From: Rhodobiaceae bacterium
GTDB taxonomy: Bacteria; Pseudomonadota; Alphaproteobacteria; Parvibaculales; Parvibaculaceae
Length of the DNA stretch: 64,000 nucleotides
Direction of reading: 5' to 3'
NCBI GenBank assembly: GCA_003330885.1
Contig: CP030277.1
Location: 1,798,001-1,862,000 of the forward strand
Within the stretch, counting starts at the first letter, position 1, and every line of letters begins with the position of its first letter. A model generated the notes under the pieces. It saw nothing but the letters and a program-made list of their open reading frames with translations. It searched no databases and was not told where the DNA came from. Below are positions 571 to 44,098 of the stretch, in pieces. Made by a program: the position numbers and the translations under genes.

Positions 571-1998
571 TCACCCCGCGCAGCAGGAGAGCTTCTTTAC
601 ATCCTTATCAAAACTCTGAGCCGCCAGCTTCAGCCCTTCTACAGCTGTGAGATAGGGGAAGATTGTATCTCCCAACTCACGGGTTGTGAGGCCACCCTTG
701 AGCGCCATCACGACGGTCTGAATGATGTCACCAGCTTCTGGGGCAAAGACAGATGCGCCAATCAACTTGTCAGTCGGAACATCTGCTACGATTTTGATTA
801 AGCCTGTTGTCTCACGCGCGGCAATAAACCGTGGGACATTATCGAGCGCGATAACGCTGGTTTTCATCTCAATGCCCTTTGCCTTCGCCTCCGCTTCAGT
901 CAGGCCGACCGTGGCGACCTGTGGATCGGTGAAAACAACAGCAGGCATGGTTGAGTTGTCATACGCGTGTTCATTTTCACTCAGGGCGTTTCGCGCTGCA
1001 AGCTTGCCGCCATAAGCGGCCATATAAACGAACATGTCTGTCCCAGTTACATCCCCTACTGCGTACACATCAGGATGCGTTGTCTGCATGAACGCGTCTA
1101 CTGCGACCCCACCATTCTTCCGCAAGTCAATGCCGACACTGTCGAGATTAAGTGTTTTGGTGTTTGGCCTCCGGCCAGCTGTAGCAAGAACCTGTTCGAC
1201 TTCAATGATCGTTTTTCCCTGGTCGGTCTCACAGAAGAGCGCAATCCCGTTACTGCTTTTCTCAATCTTTTGATAACCGACGCCTTCGCAAACGCGCACA
1301 CCTTCCCGACGCAAACTCTCAGCAAGTGCGGCGCTGATTTCTGGTTCAGTGTCCGGTAAAAGTCTGCTTCGGCAACAAATGGTCACATCGACACCTGCGC
1401 GCACGAACATGTTGCCTAGTTCGCAGCCTATGACGCCGCCACCGATAATCAGCAATGATTTAGGCAGGGAAACCAGTTCAAGAGCCGCCGTGCTATCCAG
1501 CACATCAATGCTCTGGATGCCATTGATTGGCGGCAAAGCTGAAGACGATCCCGTAGCGATTATAACCTTCTTGGGACTGTAGATCGTATCGCCAACAGCG
1601 ATTTCAGTACCGTTCCCGGTGAATTCTGCGTGTCCCACTACGTAGGAAATTGATGGATACTCCGGTATCAAGTCCTCGTATTTGGCTTTACGCAGCTCAT
1701 CAACAAGAGCTTGCTTTTGCTCAACCAATGCTCGCCAATCGACCAGCTTGGAACTCGCTTCTACGCCTGCAAACCGATCCGCAATTGTCGGTTTGTGCAG
1801 GCTCTCCGTTGCTCGGATCAAGTTTTTGGACGGCACGCAGCCAACGTTCACACAAGTTCCGCCTATCGTACCTTCACCAACAACAACAATCTCGGCTCCT
1901 GCTTCCGCTGCAGTGATCGCTGCAGAAAAGCCCCCTGATCCGCCTCCGATAACCAGGATGTCGGGCGAGGTGTTTTTCGTTTCACAGCAATCCGACAT
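571..1998 (-). CDS. merA: Mercuric reductase MerA (left copy)
   Basis: Flavoprotein disulfide oxidoreductase of 475 residues that reduces Hg(II) to volatile Hg(0) with NADPH in the cytoplasm. The FAD-binding GGGSGG motif is at about residues 18-23, the redox-active pair is Cys49/Cys54 in GGTCVNVGC, a second Rossmann motif (IIGGGVIG) binds NADPH near residue 185, and the C-terminal vicinal pair Cys472/Cys473 (LSCCAG) is the Hg-accepting site of the partner subunit. The N-terminal NmerA (HMA) domain of longer MerA proteins is absent. It is the last gene of merT-merP-merF-merA on the minus strand, starting one base after the merF stop. By my count it differs from the right copy (17767-19194) at 23 of 475 positions. 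Confidence 0.96.
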   Translation of the reverse strand: MSDCCETKNTSPDILVIGGGSGGFSAAITAAEAGAEIVVVGEGTIGGTCVNVGCVPSKNLIRATESLHKPTIADRFAGVEASSKLVDWRALVEQKQALVDELRKAKYEDLIPEYPSISYVVGHAEFTGNGTEIAVGDTIYSPKKVIIATGSSSALPPINGIQSIDVLDSTAALELVSLPKSLLIIGGGVIGCELGNMFVRAGVDVTICCRSRLLPDTEPEISAALAESLRREGVRVCEGVGYQKIEKSSNGIALFCETDQGKTIIEVEQVLATAGRRPNTKTLNLDSVGIDLRKNGGVAVDAFMQTTHPDVYAVGDVTGTDMFVYMAAYGGKLAARNALSENEHAYDNSTMPAVVFTDPQVATVGLTEAEAKAKGIEMKTSVIALDNVPRFIAARETTGLIKIVADVPTDKLIGASVFAPEAGDIIQTVVMALKGGLTTRELGDTIFPYLTAVEGLKLAAQSFDKDVKKLSCCAG

Positions 1999-17766: not shown

Positions 17767-19194
17767 ATGTCGGATTGCTGTGAAACGAAAAATACCTCGC
17801 CCGATATTTTGGTAATCGGAGGCGGATCCGGAGGCTTTTCCGCAGCGATCACGGCAGCGGAAGCAGGAGCCCAGATTGTTGTTGTTGGTGAAGGTACAAT
17901 AGGCGGAACTTGTGTGAACGTTGGTTGCGTGCCTTCCAAAAACTTGATCCGAGCAACGGAAAGCCTGCACAAACCGACAGTTGCAGATCGGTTTGCAGGC
18001 GTAGAAGCGAGTTCCAAGCTGGTCGATTGGCGAGCTTTGGTAGAGCAAAAGCAAGCTCTCGTTGATGATTTACGTAAAGCCAAATACGAGGATTTGATAC
18101 CAGAGTACCCATCAATTTCTTACGTGGTGGGACACGCAGAGTTCACCGGGAACGGTACTGAAATCGCTGTTGGCGATACGATCTACAGTCCCAAGAAAAT
18201 CATAATCGCCACGGGATCGTCTTCAGCTTTGCCGCCGATCAACGGCATCCAGAGTATCGACGTGCTGGATAGCACGTCGGCTCTGGAACTGGTTGCCCTG
18301 CCTAAATCATTGTTGATTATCGGTGGTGGCGTCATTGGCTGCGAATTAGGCAACATGTTCGTACGCGCGGGTGTTGATGTGACCATTTGTTGCCGAAGCC
18401 GACTTTTGCCGGACACTGAACCAGAAATCAGCGCCGCTCTTGCTGAGAGTTTAAGGCGAGAAGGCGTGCGAGTTTGCGAAGGCGTCGGTTATCAAAAGAT
18501 TGAGAAAAGCAGCAACGGGATTGCGCTTTCTTGTGAGACCGAACAGGGGAAAACCATCATTGAAGCCGAGCAAGTCCTTGCTACAACGGGCCGGAGGCCA
18601 AATACAAAGACGCTTAATCTCGAAAGTGTCGGTATTGACCTGCGGAACAATGGTGGGGTCGCAATAGACGCGTTCATGCAGACAACCCATCCCGATGTGT
18701 ATGCAGTGGGAGATGTAACGGGGACAGACATGTTCGTCTATATGGCCGCTTATGGAGGCAAGCTCGCAGCGCGAAACGCACTGAGTGAAAACGAACACGC
18801 GTATGACAACTCAACCATGCCTGCTGTTGTTTTTACCGATCCACAGGTCGCCACGGTCGGCCTGACTGAAGCGGACGCGAAGGCAAAAGGCGTTGAGGTG
18901 AAAACCAGCGTTATTACCCTTGATAACGTCCCACGGTTCACTGTCGCGCGTGAGACAATAGGCTTAATCAAACTTGTAGCGGATGCTCAGACAGACAAGT
19001 TGATTGGCGCATCTGTCTTCGCCCCGGAAGCTGGCGACATCATTCAGACTGTCGTGATGGCGCTCAAGGGCGGCCTCACAACCCGCGAGCTGGGCGACAC
19101 AATCTTCCCGTATCTCACAGCTGTAGAAGGGCTGAAACTAGCGGCTCAGAGCTTTGATAAGGATGTAAAGAAACTCTCTTGCTGCGCGGGGTGA
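17767..19194 (+). CDS. merA: Mercuric reductase MerA (right copy)
   Basis: 475 residues with active-site Cys49/Cys54 and C-terminal Cys472/Cys473 intact, so both copies should be functional. Differences from the left copy cluster in residues 375-410 (for example EADAKAKGVEVKTSVITL and FTVARETIGLIKLVADAQ). Homology between the two operons ends at the stop codon (TGCTGCGCGGGGTGA), beyond which the flanks are unrelated except for a short merA-like scar at 19201. Confidence 0.96.
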   Translation: MSDCCETKNTSPDILVIGGGSGGFSAAITAAEAGAQIVVVGEGTIGGTCVNVGCVPSKNLIRATESLHKPTVADRFAGVEASSKLVDWRALVEQKQALVDDLRKAKYEDLIPEYPSISYVVGHAEFTGNGTEIAVGDTIYSPKKIIIATGSSSALPPINGIQSIDVLDSTSALELVALPKSLLIIGGGVIGCELGNMFVRAGVDVTICCRSRLLPDTEPEISAALAESLRREGVRVCEGVGYQKIEKSSNGIALSCETEQGKTIIEAEQVLATTGRRPNTKTLNLESVGIDLRNNGGVAIDAFMQTTHPDVYAVGDVTGTDMFVYMAAYGGKLAARNALSENEHAYDNSTMPAVVFTDPQVATVGLTEADAKAKGVEVKTSVITLDNVPRFTVARETIGLIKLVADAQTDKLIGASVFAPEAGDIIQTVVMALKGGLTTRELGDTIFPYLTAVEGLKLAAQSFDKDVKKLSCCAG

Positions 19195-19785: not shown

Positions 19786-20238
19786 GCTGTTGAAGGTGCC
19801 TTTGGTGGCGATGTTGATTATGCCCAGCTCATCAAAATCTACGGTAATGCCCCCGAAAGCATGACGGGACGCTACTCACCAGGTGGCTGCACTGGTATCC
19901 GCAAAAAACGAGTAGAGGGTGATCCAGATATTGACCATATGAGCACATCTTTTGTGGAACGCCAGGACCTTACGATGTGGATACGCATGCGCCACTTCAC
20001 TCGCCTGACCAATGGCTTCTCAAAGAAGGTTGAGAACCACGCTCATGTCGTTGCCTTGCATTTCATGTATTACAATTTCGTTCGTATCCATCAAACTTTG
20101 AAAATGGCTCCCGCTATGGCAGCTGGCGTGACTGATAAGCTTTGGGAAGTATCAAACATCGTTGCTCTGCTGGGAGAACGAGAAGCAGAGGCTGCTCCGA
20201 AAAATCGGGGCGCTTATAAGAAAAGAAATTCAAACTGA
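19786..20238 (+). pseudogene. 3' part of an IS1-type transposase
   Basis: The frame is open from 19786 and reads VEGAFGGDVDYAQLIKIYG, then STSFVERQDLTMWIRM and RRFTRLTNGFSKK-like sequence, VALHFMYYNFVRIHQTL and AMAAGVTDKLWE. This matches the C-terminal DDE region of the transposases usually annotated as IS1 family. The N-terminal half is missing and no terminal inverted repeats are evident, so the element cannot move by itself. Its truncation point coincides with that of the pump remnant. Confidence 0.8.
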
Positions 20239-20875: not shown

Positions 20876-22531
20876 TTATCTGCGAGCCTGAGATATTCTG
20901 TCTTGGACAGGTTGAACGCCCAACAAAGACAGACTTCTAGCGCTCAACGTAATCCACAATGGTGTCAGCGCTAGCAGGTCGCCGTCAGCCTGGACGGGAA
21001 GAGGCTCTGACGCCGATATATGTACTTTTGTTGCATTCCGAAATTCAACATCCTTCAAATTGGATAGCCTCCCTAGAAGGATTGCCACAGCATATCGGAT
21101 CAACGGCCAGCGCCCTGGGGTTTTCAACAACACAACTGTTAGATGATTGTCCCTGAGATGCGCTTGTGGGGCTAGGACGAAGGCTCCGCCATACCGGGAA
21201 GCATGCGTTACGATGACATGAGCTGCGAGCGCGGGTTCTCCATCAATAACCACATTCACAAGCGTTCCTTTCTCCCGCACGAACTCACGTGTCGCTGCAA
21301 TCACATATGCGGCCTTCCCAAATTTGGTTTTGAGGGAATGGTTGATGTTCTGAACGACACGTGCATCAAAACCCACGCTTGCCATGAGAACAAAACCCGT
21401 CGCATCAGCAAATGGCATTTTAATGCTGGTTGGAAGACCTCTGAGCACACATGCCACCAAGCTGCGCATGTCTTTGGGTTGGCGGAGCTCCTGAGACAGC
21501 ACGTTGGCCGTGCCGATGGGAAGAACTGCGAGCGGTATCGCCTCGTCGAGGAGGCCGTTCGCCACCTCCCGCACAGTTCCATCTCCCCCCGCAGCAACCA
21601 CAACATCCACATCCTCAGGCCGTAAAGCAGCCGCTATCTCTTCAGCGCCGCCAGAATACTCCGTCACGAGCGTCGTAACCTCACAACCACGTGCCTCCAA
21701 GTCCGCAACAAACTCGGTGACAGTTCGCTGACCTCCGCGACCAGCAGTCGGGTTGTGAATAATGGTGATCTTATGTCTTTCACGGGGTGCATTTTCCGAC
21801 CGCAATGATAGTGCCAAATCGTTTTTCTCCTGAGCCTCGCGGCGCTTCTGAAGCTTCACAACGACAAGCAGGGCAAGGCTTGATATTGCCCACGCTATCA
21901 ACATTGTAGCGACTGTATGAGACAAATAATGTTGTCCACGTGCCATTTGATAGAAGCCCATGGTCCACCCGACCAACAAACCGAGGGCGAGCCACTTCCA
22001 TTCCATACCGTTGTTCTGGCGCCACAAGCGCGCTGCCAGCAGAGCAAAACCACCCGAAGCGTGCCCTGCAGGCCAACAGTGCAAGCTTTGTTCCTGAGAC
22101 GTCCAGTTACTTAGCTGATCCCAGATGGCAACATGCAGTACAGCGCCTCCAAAGAACTCCTCCTGTACCGGACAGGAGACCCCGGTTGACTGCTTAAGAA
22201 TTCCGACAATAACCGGAATGGAGATTGCCGCCGCGAGACCAACAGAAACTTGGGTCGCTAGATCATCCCATCCCGCCACCCAACTGCGAAATATGAGCCA
22301 AGAGACAAGGCCAACTCCAGCAAGAACAAGGAGAATTTTTATCCCCCGATAGAACACTAGATGAGAAAACCCGCGTGCTTGTGGCTGGACCAGCCAACCA
22401 CCGCCAGACCGGTCAAACAAAAGTTCTTGAACCCAGTGATCAAGACCACTCATCACCGGGAGTACACAAATTATTGCCAAACCAATTGCACAGACCACAA
22501 TTTCCAATGCGCATCTACTAGAGACGCTCAT
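20876..22531 (-). CDS. Fused PAP2 phosphatase - diacylglycerol kinase
   Basis: 551-residue two-domain protein. Residues 1-230 form a membrane PAP2 phosphatase: a variant KX6(R)P motif in KQSTGVSCP (K113), PAGH at 154-157 and RGQHYLSH at 198-205. Residues about 253-551 form a soluble lipid kinase of the YegS/DAGK-catalytic type, with NPTAGRGG near 260 and GGDGT at 315-319. It starts at the ATG at 22531, whose ATGA overlaps the eptA stop, so the two are coupled. EptA releases diacylglycerol when it takes phosphoethanolamine from PE; the kinase domain could rephosphorylate it. The phosphatase substrate (lipid A, undecaprenyl or phosphatidate) is not known. Confidence 0.85.
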   Translation of the reverse strand: MSVSSRCALEIVVCAIGLAIICVLPVMSGLDHWVQELLFDRSGGGWLVQPQARGFSHLVFYRGIKILLVLAGVGLVSWLIFRSWVAGWDDLATQVSVGLAAAISIPVIVGILKQSTGVSCPVQEEFFGGAVLHVAIWDQLSNWTSQEQSLHCWPAGHASGGFALLAARLWRQNNGMEWKWLALGLLVGWTMGFYQMARGQHYLSHTVATMLIAWAISSLALLVVVKLQKRREAQEKNDLALSLRSENAPRERHKITIIHNPTAGRGGQRTVTEFVADLEARGCEVTTLVTEYSGGAEEIAAALRPEDVDVVVAAGGDGTVREVANGLLDEAIPLAVLPIGTANVLSQELRQPKDMRSLVACVLRGLPTSIKMPFADATGFVLMASVGFDARVVQNINHSLKTKFGKAAYVIAATREFVREKGTLVNVVIDGEPALAAHVIVTHASRYGGAFVLAPQAHLRDNHLTVVLLKTPGRWPLIRYAVAILLGRLSNLKDVEFRNATKVHISASEPLPVQADGDLLALTPLWITLSARSLSLLGVQPVQDRISQARR

Positions 22532-24261
22532 TCGCTGTGATTTGCAGTCTGCCTGTCGGCGACCAGTGGCAACTTTGGTGTTACCTGCATGCATGGCTCT
22601 GCGAAGTCGAGGGAGCCCTCATAAACATCAGTTTCAACCTTGAGCATTCCCAACACAGTGTGAAAAATGTTGTCGTGGGAGAAAGGCCTTTCTGCGATAT
22701 CTCTGATACACCCACTGTCAATTTCCTGCCTTTGCGCGAACTCCGTTCCCAACCAGAGGATCATCGGAACCTCACGCTGTTCAGCCGGGGAAAAAGCATA
22801 GGGCATACCGTGAAGGTACATACCCCGTTCACCAAGTGACTCACCGTGGTCGGAGACGTAGAGCATCGATGCATCTAACTTATCAGACGAGGTCTGTAGC
22901 TCATGTACAATTTGTGAGATCACTTGATCTGTATACAGGATGGAATTGTCGTAACTATTGGATATCTGCTCTTGTGTACAAAGTTGAATTTGGGTTGTGT
23001 CGCAAGTAGGAAAAAATTTGCGATAAGCTTCTGGATACCGCCGGTAGTAAGCTGGACCATGACTACCGATTTGGTGCATTACGATCACTGTGTCGGTCGT
23101 TATTTCCTCAAGTTTTGTTTTCAAGCTTTCAACGAGTGCTTCGTCATTGCACGATTGGTCCTTGCAAAACTCGGGAAACTTCTCGGGTGTCATCCGCTCC
23201 GTGGGCACGCGAGCACACACGCCTTTACACCCAGTATTGTTCTCCAGCCACATAACGTCGAACTTGGCCCTAACTAGAATATCGAGCAAATTTTCCCGCC
23301 ACTTTGCTTCGTCTACTGAAAATTCAGACCGCGCTTCTGCCGAAAATAGACACGGGACGGAAACGGCGGTCGATGTACCGCAGGAAACGACATTGCCAAA
23401 GCTGACAATTGGCAATGCAGATAGTGAAGGGTTGGTCTGACGATTGTAACCATTGATGCTAAACCGGTCAGCCCTCGCCGTCTCGCCCACCACAAGGACA
23501 AAGACCATAGGACGATCATCATTTGAGACATCGCGCGCAGCGGACATGGCGACCTGTCGATATGTTTCATCGACATTCCCAATACTAGGTGCAAGTGCAC
23601 GAAAGGTATAATAGATCGGCGATGTTGGGTTGATTGTGTAGCGAATTTGCCGGTTGTTGCGAACAAATGATGCATATTCTTGATAGAAACTCGCAGCGGT
23701 CACCGAGATTAAAAGTAGGCAACCCATCGCCGTTGCCAGGCGGATGATGCCCTCTTTTTTCCATGTGAATACTTTGATTGGCGTCGTCACAATAAGCCAT
23801 GAAGGTACTGCGCCGTACAACAATAGGTGCGAAATCAGTTCGGTAGACAGGAAGTCGCTTGCCTCGCCCACGTCAGTGCCGGTGATGTTCAGGATCATCG
23901 TTTTGTCAAAGACAATCCCGTAGTTACTCGAGAAGTAAGAAACGGTTCCTGAAAAAAAGACAAGAAAAACCAGTGCAGGTTTTACGGTCCGAGAACTCGA
24001 GAACAGAAGAGACACCAAGGTGAAAGCTGACGCCAATACAGCACCGATGGACAGCAAAAAAAGATAGTCCCGAAGACTTCTGCCATCCCACTTGGAGAAA
24101 GTAAAACTCCAGAGGCTGTTGTTGTAAAGCGCGACCAGCGCCACTGAAACAATTAGACACAATAGCACTGGGTGAACTGATGGAAGTGCTGACCAAGTCC
24201 AGTTGCGAGGAAAGGCAATGCGCATGAGCCGGGAACCAATCGAGACCATAGCGACTGACAT
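22528..24261 (-). CDS. eptA: Lipid A phosphoethanolamine transferase, EptA/MCR family
   Basis: Inner-membrane enzyme of 577 residues that moves phosphoethanolamine from phosphatidylethanolamine to lipid A, lowering its negative charge. Five N-terminal helices (to about residue 190) precede a periplasmic sulfatase-fold domain. Zinc and catalytic residues are visible in VVGETARADRFS, in the nucleophile region SCGTSTAVSVPC, and in SDHGESLGERGMYLHGMPY; the paired cysteines of MCR/EptA (GCKGVC, CDTTQIQLC) are present. Start taken as the ATG at 24261; in-frame ATGs 4 and 12 codons later are possible. The adjacent two-component system probably controls it. Known family members cause polymyxin resistance; the level here cannot be inferred. 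Confidence 0.93.
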   Translation of the reverse strand: MSVAMVSIGSRLMRIAFPRNWTWSALPSVHPVLLCLIVSVALVALYNNSLWSFTFSKWDGRSLRDYLFLLSIGAVLASAFTLVSLLFSSSRTVKPALVFLVFFSGTVSYFSSNYGIVFDKTMILNITGTDVGEASDFLSTELISHLLLYGAVPSWLIVTTPIKVFTWKKEGIIRLATAMGCLLLISVTAASFYQEYASFVRNNRQIRYTINPTSPIYYTFRALAPSIGNVDETYRQVAMSAARDVSNDDRPMVFVLVVGETARADRFSINGYNRQTNPSLSALPIVSFGNVVSCGTSTAVSVPCLFSAEARSEFSVDEAKWRENLLDILVRAKFDVMWLENNTGCKGVCARVPTERMTPEKFPEFCKDQSCNDEALVESLKTKLEEITTDTVIVMHQIGSHGPAYYRRYPEAYRKFFPTCDTTQIQLCTQEQISNSYDNSILYTDQVISQIVHELQTSSDKLDASMLYVSDHGESLGERGMYLHGMPYAFSPAEQREVPMILWLGTEFAQRQEIDSGCIRDIAERPFSHDNIFHTVLGMLKVETDVYEGSLDFAEPCMQVTPKLPLVADRQTANHSE

Positions 24262-24359: not shown

Positions 24360-25727
24360 CTACTCTGCGTTCAACGTAATAGTAAACGCAGCACCGTGAC
24401 CTTCTTCGCTATCAACATGAACGCTCCCACCGTGAGCGGCCACTATGCGTTCCACAATTGACAGCCCCAGGCCCGCACCGCTGAACTTTGTGGTTTCACC
24501 ACGAACAAACCTGGAGAAGATGCGCTTCGTCTGATCAGGTGGAACTCCGGGACCATCGTCCAGTACGCTCAGGCTCGCCGGATCATGCAAAACGACCAAT
24601 ACCGTTGATCCAACCGGCGACACTGTCAGTGCATTTTCCAGCAAGTTTCGGATAGCCATGCAAAGATATTCTTCATCGCCTTTGACCGTTAGTGGTCCTT
24701 CCGCTCCCTGAAGCTCGATCTCTTTACCTTGTTTGAAAGCTGTCGGGGCCATCAAACTGATGGCTGTCGTCGCAGCCTGCCGAAGACTTGCCTGCTGGGT
24801 ATGCTCAATAACGAGATTGTCTGCTTGGGCAAGCCTCAAGAGCTGAGCAACTATTCGCTCGATCTTGCCCAAATCACGTAGAAGATCTGGAACGCCGTCA
24901 AGACTTGTGAGAGTTTCAGCACGAGAATGCAGAACAGCCAGCGGTGTGCGCAGCTCATGAGCTGCGTTCGCTGCAAATTCTCTCTCGCGGCCATACCCTT
25001 CCTCAATTTGGTCAAGCGCAATATTCACCGCCCTTACGAGCGGGAGAACCTCGTCTGGAACATTTCCCTCGGACAATCTCCGGTTCATCGTCGATGGTCC
25101 GATCGTCGCAGCCTCAGCGCTAATTTCTGTCAGCGGCGCAAGGGACCGGCGGACTGTCCACACAAGCAGAGGTAGCAGCAGCGGGAGAAACAAAAGCCCC
25201 CACGAGAACTCGAGAAGCTCCTCTGCGAGCGTCTCTTCGGATACAAGATCCGAGTGCTCCATACCGGCCTGTAGCACATAAAGTTGTCCAGCAAGAATGA
25301 ATGGGAATGAGATACCGTTTGAATGCTCACTTGAGACCGGGTCTTCGTAGTCGAAATAGGCAAGCTCGGACGACTGGGCAAGGCGGGCTAGAAACGCCAT
25401 TTTTCGACCATGCGACGACGCCACAGCTTGGCCCAGAGGGTCCAAAATTACAAATTCAACAGCCTCCTCAATGTCTTCGACACTCGCTGGCTTCTCGAAC
25501 ACAAACAGCGGTGTTCCTTCCGATGAGGAGGTGTGGGTCGCCACATATTGCATGGAAACGTGCATCGCAAATGAATTCAAGGCAAGATATCGGTCATCGT
25601 TCTCTTCAGTCCCAAAATGAACGTAGGCGGCACCAAAAATGATCAGGAAATTAGCAATGGACAACGCTAGCACCCGTCCCACCAAGAGCTGACTGAGTGA
25701 ACGTGTCGACAGAACGAATTTGGTCAT
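24360..25727 (-). CDS. Sensor histidine kinase (PmrB/QseC-like) of the eptA module
   Basis: 455-residue membrane kinase. Helix 1 (about 15-36), a periplasmic domain of about 130 residues, helix 2 (about 170-192) and a HAMP-like segment lead to the phospho-acceptor His257 in FAANAAHELRTPLAV. The ATPase has the N box (NLLENAL), G1 (DDGPGVP) and G2 (GAGLGLSI) motifs. Its start overlaps the regulator stop as ATGA. Located between the regulator and eptA on one strand, it probably senses envelope or cationic stress; the ligand is unknown. Confidence 0.92.
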   Translation of the reverse strand: MTKFVLSTRSLSQLLVGRVLALSIANFLIIFGAAYVHFGTEENDDRYLALNSFAMHVSMQYVATHTSSSEGTPLFVFEKPASVEDIEEAVEFVILDPLGQAVASSHGRKMAFLARLAQSSELAYFDYEDPVSSEHSNGISFPFILAGQLYVLQAGMEHSDLVSEETLAEELLEFSWGLLFLPLLLPLLVWTVRRSLAPLTEISAEAATIGPSTMNRRLSEGNVPDEVLPLVRAVNIALDQIEEGYGREREFAANAAHELRTPLAVLHSRAETLTSLDGVPDLLRDLGKIERIVAQLLRLAQADNLVIEHTQQASLRQAATTAISLMAPTAFKQGKEIELQGAEGPLTVKGDEEYLCMAIRNLLENALTVSPVGSTVLVVLHDPASLSVLDDGPGVPPDQTKRIFSRFVRGETTKFSGAGLGLSIVERIVAAHGGSVHVDSEEGHGAAFTITLNAE

Positions 25728-26401
25728 GGGGAAATTTCATCCAGAAGGTAACCAACACCGCGCACGGTGTGCACGGCAATGGATGCATTGTGCGCGATAA
25801 GCTTTTTGCGAAGCCTGTGAACTGTGACTTCAACAGCGTTTGGGGTAATCCCCTCCGAAGAATAAGTCATGCCGTCCAGGAGTACCTCTTTAGGGACGAC
25901 ACGACCGAAGCGACGCATGAGAAATTCGAGGAAAATGATTTCCATGCGAGTTGCGGGAAGAACACTGCCATCCACAGTTGCATCTCGTGCCGTTGTGTCC
26001 AATGTCACATTCCCGCACTCCAGCACAACACCCAGTGCGGCTCCAGGCCTTCGCAGAAGTGCCCTCAAACGAGCGATGAGCTCGGCCATCTCAAACGGTT
26101 TTGTTAGATAGTCATCTGCACCAGCATTAAGCCCGCCCACTCGGTCGCCAACGCCATCGCGCGCCGAAAGTATAAGCATCGGCAAATCCAGGCCGAGCCC
26201 ACGTACGTGTGTTATAAGGCTGCCTCCGTCCCCATCAGGCAACCCGAGATCAACAATAGCAGCGTCGTAGCTTGTAGCAGCAACAGCAGTTGTCGCAGTC
26301 GCCAGATCGGGACAGTGATTGACAGAAAATCCTGAATTCGCGCACCCTTTTTCGATTAGGTGGGCAAGGCTGTCATTGTCTTCAACCAGCAACAAACGCA
26401 T
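25724..26401 (-). CDS. OmpR-family response regulator of the eptA module
   Basis: 225-residue regulator with a receiver domain (acidic pair ED at 7-8, phospho-acceptor Asp51 in IVDLGLPDGDGG, Lys in YLTKPFEM) and a C-terminal winged helix (EVTVHRLRKKL, VHTVRGVGYLL). Resembles PmrA/QseB. It is first of regulator-kinase-eptA-PAP2/DAGK. Likely binds the 11-bp-spaced repeats at 26535-26551 and 24319-24336, which would give autoregulation and eptA activation. Confidence 0.93.
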   Translation of the reverse strand: MRLLLVEDNDSLAHLIEKGCANSGFSVNHCPDLATATTAVAATSYDAAIVDLGLPDGDGGSLITHVRGLGLDLPMLILSARDGVGDRVGGLNAGADDYLTKPFEMAELIARLRALLRRPGAALGVVLECGNVTLDTTARDATVDGSVLPATRMEIIFLEFLMRRFGRVVPKEVLLDGMTYSSEGITPNAVEVTVHRLRKKLIAHNASIAVHTVRGVGYLLDEISP

Positions 26402-44022: not shown

Positions 44023-44098
44023 TGGTGGGCCGTGTAGGATTCGAACCTACGACCTAGTGATTAAGAGTCACCCGCTCTACCAACTGAGCTAACGGCCC
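44023..44098 (-). tRNA. tRNA-Lys (anticodon CUU)
   Basis: 76 nt including an encoded CCA. The acceptor stem pairs GGGCCGT with ACGGCCC, the D arm has AGCTCAGTTGGTAGAGC, the anticodon loop is CTCTTAA (anticodon CUU), and the T arm is the usual GTTCGAATCC type. Its 3' end faces the integrase pseudogene, the normal position for an integrative element. Confidence 0.97.

Follow-up and report, generated by a model that had tools for sequence, protein, structure and literature searches.

Phosphoethanolamine transferases of the EptA/MCR type confer resistance to polymyxins. Their reaction also yields a by-product that disturbs the membrane, and the helper genes which handle it are poorly understood. 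A study by Purcell et al. (2022) is reportedly devoted to DgkA and EptA. Here, we examine a helper candidate in a window of 64,000 nucleotides (the whole stretch of DNA that was analysed) from Rhodobiaceae bacterium (GCA_003330885.1, contig CP030277.1, positions 1,798,001 to 1,862,000), where eptA is followed by a single gene encoding a PAP2 phosphatase part and a lipid kinase part. According to two earlier reports, the diacylglycerol (DAG) from EptA is recycled by DgkA (PMC7559476, PMC10285318), and mcr-7.1 precedes an operon that contains pap2 as well as dgkA (PMC10285318). These sources bear out the statement, made in a preliminary description of the window, that eptA/MCR genes are often followed by a pap2 or a dgkA gene.

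The mcr-7.1, mcr-3 and mcr-1 sets resemble the window in that a PAP2 gene, a DAG kinase gene or both adjoin the gene for a phosphoethanolamine transferase. Their kinase is the small membrane protein DgkA, whereas that of the window is of an unrelated YegS/DgkB type and is fused to PAP2; a two-component system belongs to the window's set, unlike the mcr sets as far as these are described in the two sources (PMC7559476, PMC10285318). In Sutterella and relatives, PAP2 is likewise joined to another enzyme of the same pathway, but the partner is the transferase itself and no lipid kinase is involved (PMC8296556). A protein of a Gram-positive actinomycete, known by name only, holds both named domains in one chain, like the window's protein; it was compared by its description, which mentions no EptA. 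The LpxE-EptA operons of H. pylori, Capnocytophaga and Xanthomonas are similar in another respect: a lipid A phosphatase gene overlaps or adjoins eptA, and the Xanthomonas operon stands beside a two-component system, as in the window (PMC4730577, PMC8306577). They differ in that no kinase is named and that LpxE activity is shown or predicted there, which does not hold for the window's PAP2 part. In Capnocytophaga and H. pylori, LpxE acts ahead of EptA (PMC4730577).

The PAP2-kinase fusion beside eptA is real and rare. The setting is already known from the mcr/eptA-pap2-dgkA gene set, and the fused form is what is new. We propose that a two-component-regulated eptA operon would end here in a bifunctional EptA accessory enzyme, which would combine a cytoplasmic, DAG-recycling kinase with a periplasmic phosphatase probably acting on lipid A phosphate. 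Taken together with its predicted operon transcription, topology, activities, substrates and coupling, this proposal seems to us evenly balanced between acceptance and doubt. The parts concerned are, in positions of the window:

22528..24261, minus strand: eptA, predicted lipid A phosphoethanolamine transferase, 577 aa (Pfam, NCBIfam, catalytic motifs)
20876..22531, minus strand: fusion gene for 551 aa, predicted PAP2 phosphatase joined to a lipid kinase of the YegS/DgkB type (ATGA shared by its start and the stop of eptA)
21827..22531, minus strand: PAP2 part, aa 1-235 (about aa 1-230), predicted helical PAP2 fold (Pfam, alignment, model, VIA-align)
21795..21856, minus strand: linker region with AGGAG and an in-frame TTG (codon 239), a weak candidate for the start of a free kinase, either as a relic or as an alternative to the fusion start
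20876..21787, minus strand: predicted lipid kinase part, aa 249-551 (about aa 250-540), DAGK_cat and YegS_C, GGDGT at 315 (Pfam, NCBIfam, Foldseek)

The fusion occupies one uninterrupted, stop-free frame within which both domain profiles match, and the source genome is a single contig scored 100% complete. In the list of open reading frames (ORFs) it spans 20876-22594 on the minus strand, with a first ATG at 22594. The ATG at 22531 is the likelier start, because all 13 relatives in which the two domains are separate genes likewise have a start codon offset by -3 relative to the eptA stop. It gives a 4-nt overlap with the eptA TGA and a protein of 551 residues. The preliminary description had announced a PAP2-kinase fusion whose start overlaps eptA, and the ORFs, the Pfam and NCBIfam matches and the ATGA agree with it. 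In the predicted model, the last PAP2 helix is unbroken from residue 203 to 247 and heads towards the kinase. Since this helix runs on to the kinase and a Lys/Arg-rich stretch (KLQKRREAQEK) stands behind the hydrophobic segment, we infer that the kinase should face the cytoplasm and the PAP2 site the periplasm, which is the general orientation of PAP2 active sites (PMC7559476).

The upstream protein is the only EptA_B_N match of the genome. It scores 145 bits with Pfam EptA_B_N (cut-off 22.3) and 211 with Sulfatase (cut-off 25), and passes the NCBIfam model NF028537 for phosphoethanolamine-lipid A transferases (589 bits, cut-off 500). The narrow EptA equivalog models are missed (NF008619, 538.3 against 660; NF007160, 329.3 against 561 bits), as are all MCR models, the best of which reaches 450.6 bits against a cut-off of 1075. 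By these profiles, the protein is EptA-like according to the broader NCBIfam model only. The catalytic motifs VGETAR (258), CGTSTA (294) and SDHGESLGE (470) are present. In PMC8306577, N. meningitidis EptA is described with catalytic Glu, Thr and Asp-His and with five Cys pairs; here, ten of the twelve cysteines are spaced like the five known disulfides (294/304, 345/349, 366/371, 420/428 and 518/557), a pairing deduced from spacing.

The kinase part is matched by Pfam DAGK_cat (90.4 bits, cut-off 23.6) and YegS_C (76.4, cut-off 27) and passes TIGR00147, the YegS/Rv2252/BmrU lipid kinase model, with 123.2 bits (cut-off 118.65). It falls short of the narrow lipid kinase models PRK13057 (153.6 of 274 bits), PRK13337 for diacylglycerol kinase (105.2 of 385), YegS (101 of 284 and 81.7 of 387) and MamU (68.1 of 400). 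The kinase motifs, on which the preliminary description had staked its reading, are intact: NPTAG at 260, GGDGT at 315, GTAN at 340 and DGD at 516. The DgkA family (PF01219, DAGK_prokar) has no match in the fusion or anywhere in the genome. These matches predict a soluble kinase of the YegS/DgkB type, unrelated to DgkA. The closest solved structures by sequence are named diacylglycerol kinases (mostly putative), BmrU and DgkB, followed by YegS. With Foldseek, a model of the kinase (low confidence, mean pLDDT 70) best matches DgkB 2qvl/2qv7 at a TM of about 0.4; in the model of the whole fusion, pLDDT stays under 50 for most of the kinase.

The PAP2 part scores 37.8 bits with Pfam PF01569 (cut-off 27.2). 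The canonical PAP2 signature consists of K-x6-RP, PSGH and SR-x5-H-x3-D. Here, the corresponding stretches are KQSTGVSCP at 113, PAGH at 154 (154-157) and HYLSH at 201, which provide K113, P121, H201 and H205. The six residues named for LpxE in PMC8306577 (Lys, Pro, Pro, Gly, His, His) are matched in kind, and nearly in spacing, by K113, P121, P154, G156, H157 and H201. Relative to PAP2 genes on enterobacterial plasmids, typical matches show 30-32% identity over 71-89% of the part; we take these genes to be the neighbour of mcr-1, the plasmids themselves being unchecked. The PAP2 model has a pLDDT of about 80-95 except around residues 111-160 and contains six long helices, one of just 12 residues. 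By VIA-align it matches the B. subtilis PAP2 phosphatase 5jki (Z 13.7, rmsd 4.2, 188 residues) and PgpB 8bm3 (Z 9.1), which is support rather than proof since helical folds may reach such Z values by chance arrangement. The PAP2 profile searched against solved structures produced chance matches only, and Foldseek with the whole fusion model returned no PAP2 chain among the best 50 rows listed.

Relatives within the order place the fusion in a wider context. EptA occurs in 18 of 40 genomes of the order: the window's own, 14 of a Parvibaculum-type genus, two of Tepidicaulis type and one (G004) of the window's genus, in which EptA is 38% identical and no PAP2 match is found. EptA is missing from the remaining five genomes of the window's genus. 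This PAP2 adjoins eptA in 17 of the 18 genomes, the window's included (in G038 the PAP2 match comes in two pieces); 13 of them also carry a separate DAGK_cat gene, located 97-122 nt downstream. These 13 split loci, which leave out one at a contig end (G033) and the two of Tepidicaulis type, read regulator-sensor-eptA-pap2-dagK. They share with the window the gene order and the eptA/pap2 overlap at -3 and differ from it in that pap2 and dagK are separate genes, the dagK being the family's ordinary copy.

A search for the same domain order, which the preliminary description had suggested, yields the separate genes of the 13 relatives in that order and no second fused copy: across both parts, no other stop-free match was found in 40 genomes of the order, 385 of the class and 398 of the phylum (overlapping sets) or in 72,556 plasmids, with matches followed to E 1e-40 in the class and E 1e-20 in the phylum and at most three candidates scored per genome, so that remote fusions could be missed. 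Among the plasmids, 1005 have a match, none of which covers 80%. Candidate fusions in three Parvibaculum-type genomes (G020, G028 and G034, open frames of 615-766 aa) were rejected, as was a single match across both parts with three stops in G018; the loci, once read, contain separate genes. A contig scan with PAP2-only patterns (80 stretches) collected 21 PAP2 relatives: 12 have a separate DAGK frame, in one (L096) the extracted stretch gives a DAGK match that contains a stop, and the remaining eight have no DAGK in the DNA examined, some of which ends nearby. Lastly, a PAP2-DAGK fusion tied to EptA is absent from the matches listed in the open-licence literature.

The origin of the kinase was addressed by a tree of 60 rows (quick method, SH-aLRT only), for which all loci were read on both strands. 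The two domains were aligned separately, a joint alignment having misplaced kinase rows on the PAP2 part and being left unused, and the kinase profile used the 28 of 36 rows with GGDGT. The window's domain falls outside the family clade (20 rows, SH-aLRT 99), which holds six of the 13 dagK genes (the six put in the tree) and a second copy from the window's own genome. It groups instead with two other genomes of the class (SH-aLRT 87). Orthology with the Parvibaculum-type dagK was rejected in view of this separation and of the identities: among the comparisons listed, the Parvibaculum-type genes share 53-60% with stand-alone DAGKs from the window's genus, and the window's domain reaches only 34-39% with either group. 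Its nearest stand-alone neighbour in the tree (G143) lacks an eptA within 1.5 kb; the four genes scanned around it include one for a glycosyltransferase and one for a metallophosphatase. Because the window's kinase does not belong to the clade of the Parvibaculum-type dagK, two different DAGK genes were probably tied to eptA-pap2, one by position and one by fusion; most simply, the association arose twice.

Other DAGK_cat genes of the genome have neighbours of their own. The third copy (L127:5259-7891; G000:C1 ~2631258-2633890) overlaps by 4 nt a glycerol-3-phosphate oxidase/dehydrogenase-like gene (DAO, DAO_C); a gene for an FAD-linked oxidase comes next, in a possible glycerolipid operon. 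A calcineurin-like phosphoesterase gene adjoins both the ordinary copy of this genome and that of a distant class member (L126 and L128).

These elements can be assembled into a mechanism. EptA would take phosphoethanolamine from phosphatidylethanolamine at the periplasmic side and leave DAG in the membrane. The PAP2 helices would keep the C-terminal kinase at the inner face of the membrane, where it would phosphorylate DAG to phosphatidic acid, which would then re-enter phospholipid synthesis. The kinase would thereby stand in for DgkA, which serves EptA/MCR in this way in enterobacteria and is absent from this lineage. The preliminary description suggested that the fusion could couple lipid A modification to removal of DAG; such removal is plausible because DgkA is found in none of the 40 genomes of the order, with the qualification that the kinase is not of the DgkA type and its activity is predicted. 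The PAP2 part, with its site at the periplasmic face, would remove a phosphate next to the reaction of EptA, its likeliest substrate being lipid A, which LpxE dephosphorylates in H. pylori and Capnocytophaga. Of the two targets offered earlier, the same lipid pool and the lipid A 1-phosphate, the former is unlikely: the active sites would lie on opposite membrane faces, and hydrolysis of the kinase's own product would undo its work in a futile cycle. Lipid A phosphate is the better guess. A bolder version would be an enzyme with two faces, in which paired steps across the membrane on one polypeptide (a lipid phosphate taken off outside, the flipped lipid phosphorylated inside) are coupled to EptA and replace DgkA where it is missing; to this we give little credence.

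Several observations weigh against the bifunctional accessory enzyme. The canonical three-motif PAP2 signature is incomplete: Lys, Pro and both His are kept, and the motif 1 Arg and the motif 3 Asp are replaced by C120 and H205. With the curated model for PAP2 family lipid A phosphatases, NF028538, the part reaches 116.4 bits (E 1.4e-33, cut-off 275) and is by this measure a relative, not a member, of that family. A simple hydropathy scan detects only four strong membrane segments in it. Furthermore, the genome holds two further DAGK_cat genes which could recycle DAG, the Parvibaculum dagK is an ordinary copy placed downstream without overlap, and in the two Tepidicaulis-type genomes eptA-pap2 has no DAGK in the region read. 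Across the class, a profile scan of 25 EptA regions (two of them, L103 and L108, short contigs; a third, L112, yielding no EptA) finds DAGK_cat beside eptA in two (that of the window and that of one Parvibaculum) and a PAP2 belonging to this group in five; of the 15 genomes with EptA but no DgkA, 13 show no DAGK_cat in the region read. EptA in general thus needs neither DAGK_cat nor PAP2. Counts of DgkA in the same sample point the other way: EptA occurs in 25 of 385 genomes and DgkA in 54; DgkA is present in 10 of the 25 EptA genomes (counted by eye) against 44 of the 360 others (Fisher p = 8e-4, in a test which ignores kinship), and EptA and DgkA matches lie within about 1 kb in four genomes (G069, G076, G107, G256). 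A nearby lipid kinase is favoured, not general, for EptA.

The substrates of the two parts, together with the two additional DAGK_cat genes, are the main grounds for doubt, and for each substrate another explanation may apply. The PAP2 part could hydrolyse undecaprenyl pyrophosphate, phosphatidylglycerol phosphate, phosphatidic acid or the bis-phosphate form of lipid A that an LpxT-like enzyme produces, rather than lipid A 1-phosphate itself. Its best structural match, 5jki, is indeed a phosphatidylglycerol phosphate phosphatase, and Gallardo et al. argue for bis-phosphate removal by the hPAP2 of mcr-1, which alone did not increase colistin resistance (PMC7559476). However, all six named LpxE residues have counterparts here, and the replaced third-motif Asp recalls the hPAP2 proteins, which in the same report also mismatch the catalytic triad and showed no bacitracin effect; a different PAP2 substrate is a serious yet doubtful possibility. 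The two replacements would also be expected if the PAP2 part were mainly an inner-membrane anchor keeping the kinase near EptA. Replacements and kept residues are nevertheless invariant in all 14 aligned proteins, 13 of which are PAP2 proteins without a kinase fusion, and an anchor of this kind appears very improbable.

Similar reasoning applies to the kinase and to the join. The kinase may act on ceramide, phosphatidylglycerol or a polyprenol, its tie to EptA being incidental or serving a different envelope change. PMC10331486 calls YegS a phosphatidylglycerol kinase and reports that Caulobacter CpgB phosphorylates ceramide and DAG comparably in vitro, with ceramide concluded to be the substrate in vivo; the window's domain reaches the broad TIGR00147 cut-off and that of no narrower model. 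Yet the fusion gene overlaps eptA, lipid kinases are linked to eptA repeatedly, and the nearest solved relatives by sequence bear the name of diacylglycerol kinases, mostly putative, or are BmrU, so that we consider another lipid unlikely. As for the join, it might not function as one protein, either through an assembly error in the linker or through a free kinase made from an internal start. All 13 relatives have separate genes, no second fused copy was found, and the linker contains a run of five A and an AGGAG nine bases before its in-frame TTG. However, a start signal as good as this accompanies 55 of 680 internal in-frame start codons in 24 genes of the window, the frame continues without a stop in a single-contig genome scored 100% complete, and a helix passes through the join in the model; a non-functional join is quite improbable.

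The proposed operon begins with two regulatory genes:

25724..26401, minus strand: response regulator of the OmpR family, similar to TctD/PmrA/QseB (scores under the thresholds of these models; Pfam/NCBIfam; homologue in the same place in relatives)
24360..25727, minus strand: sensor histidine kinase, similar to CzcS/QseC/PmrB (scores under the thresholds of these models; Pfam/NCBIfam; homologue in the same place in relatives)

The order of transcription on the minus strand is response regulator, sensor kinase, eptA and fusion gene. The stop of the regulator and the start of the sensor share an ATGA overlap, and 98 bases separate the sensor gene from eptA; this layout suggests a four-gene operon. 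The region before eptA offers only short inverted repeats as operator candidates. The N-terminal 200 residues of the sensor contain the ExxE-type motifs EDIE, EAVE and ELLE (aa 84-91, 170-173), and PmrB/ColS-like metal sensing is possible on this basis.

The left 44 kb of the window have a GC content of 0.521, against 0.554 in the right 20 kb. The step at about 44000 is near a tRNA-Lys (44023-44098) and may be an island edge. The left portion carries what we read as mercury and heavy-metal resistance genes. A mercuric reductase-like gene, identified in the same way, occurs twice in opposite orientation (571-1998, minus strand; 17767-19194, plus strand), the copies being identical at 453 of 476 positions in translation (counting the stop) and at 1304 of 1428 bases and flanking an apparent heavy-metal efflux operon. 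A transposase-like fragment (19861-20238), with a weak IS1 match of 18.6 bits (cut-off 24.1), is situated between the mercury genes and the eptA cluster. Given the lower GC on the left, the metal-resistance genes and this weak transposase match, the eptA cluster probably arrived on an island.

The fused helper, with its DgkA-unrelated kinase, was found in an order without DgkA, and would suggest that the same need is met there by a different enzyme family. Furthermore, the fusion may serve as a compact protein for assaying both helper activities.

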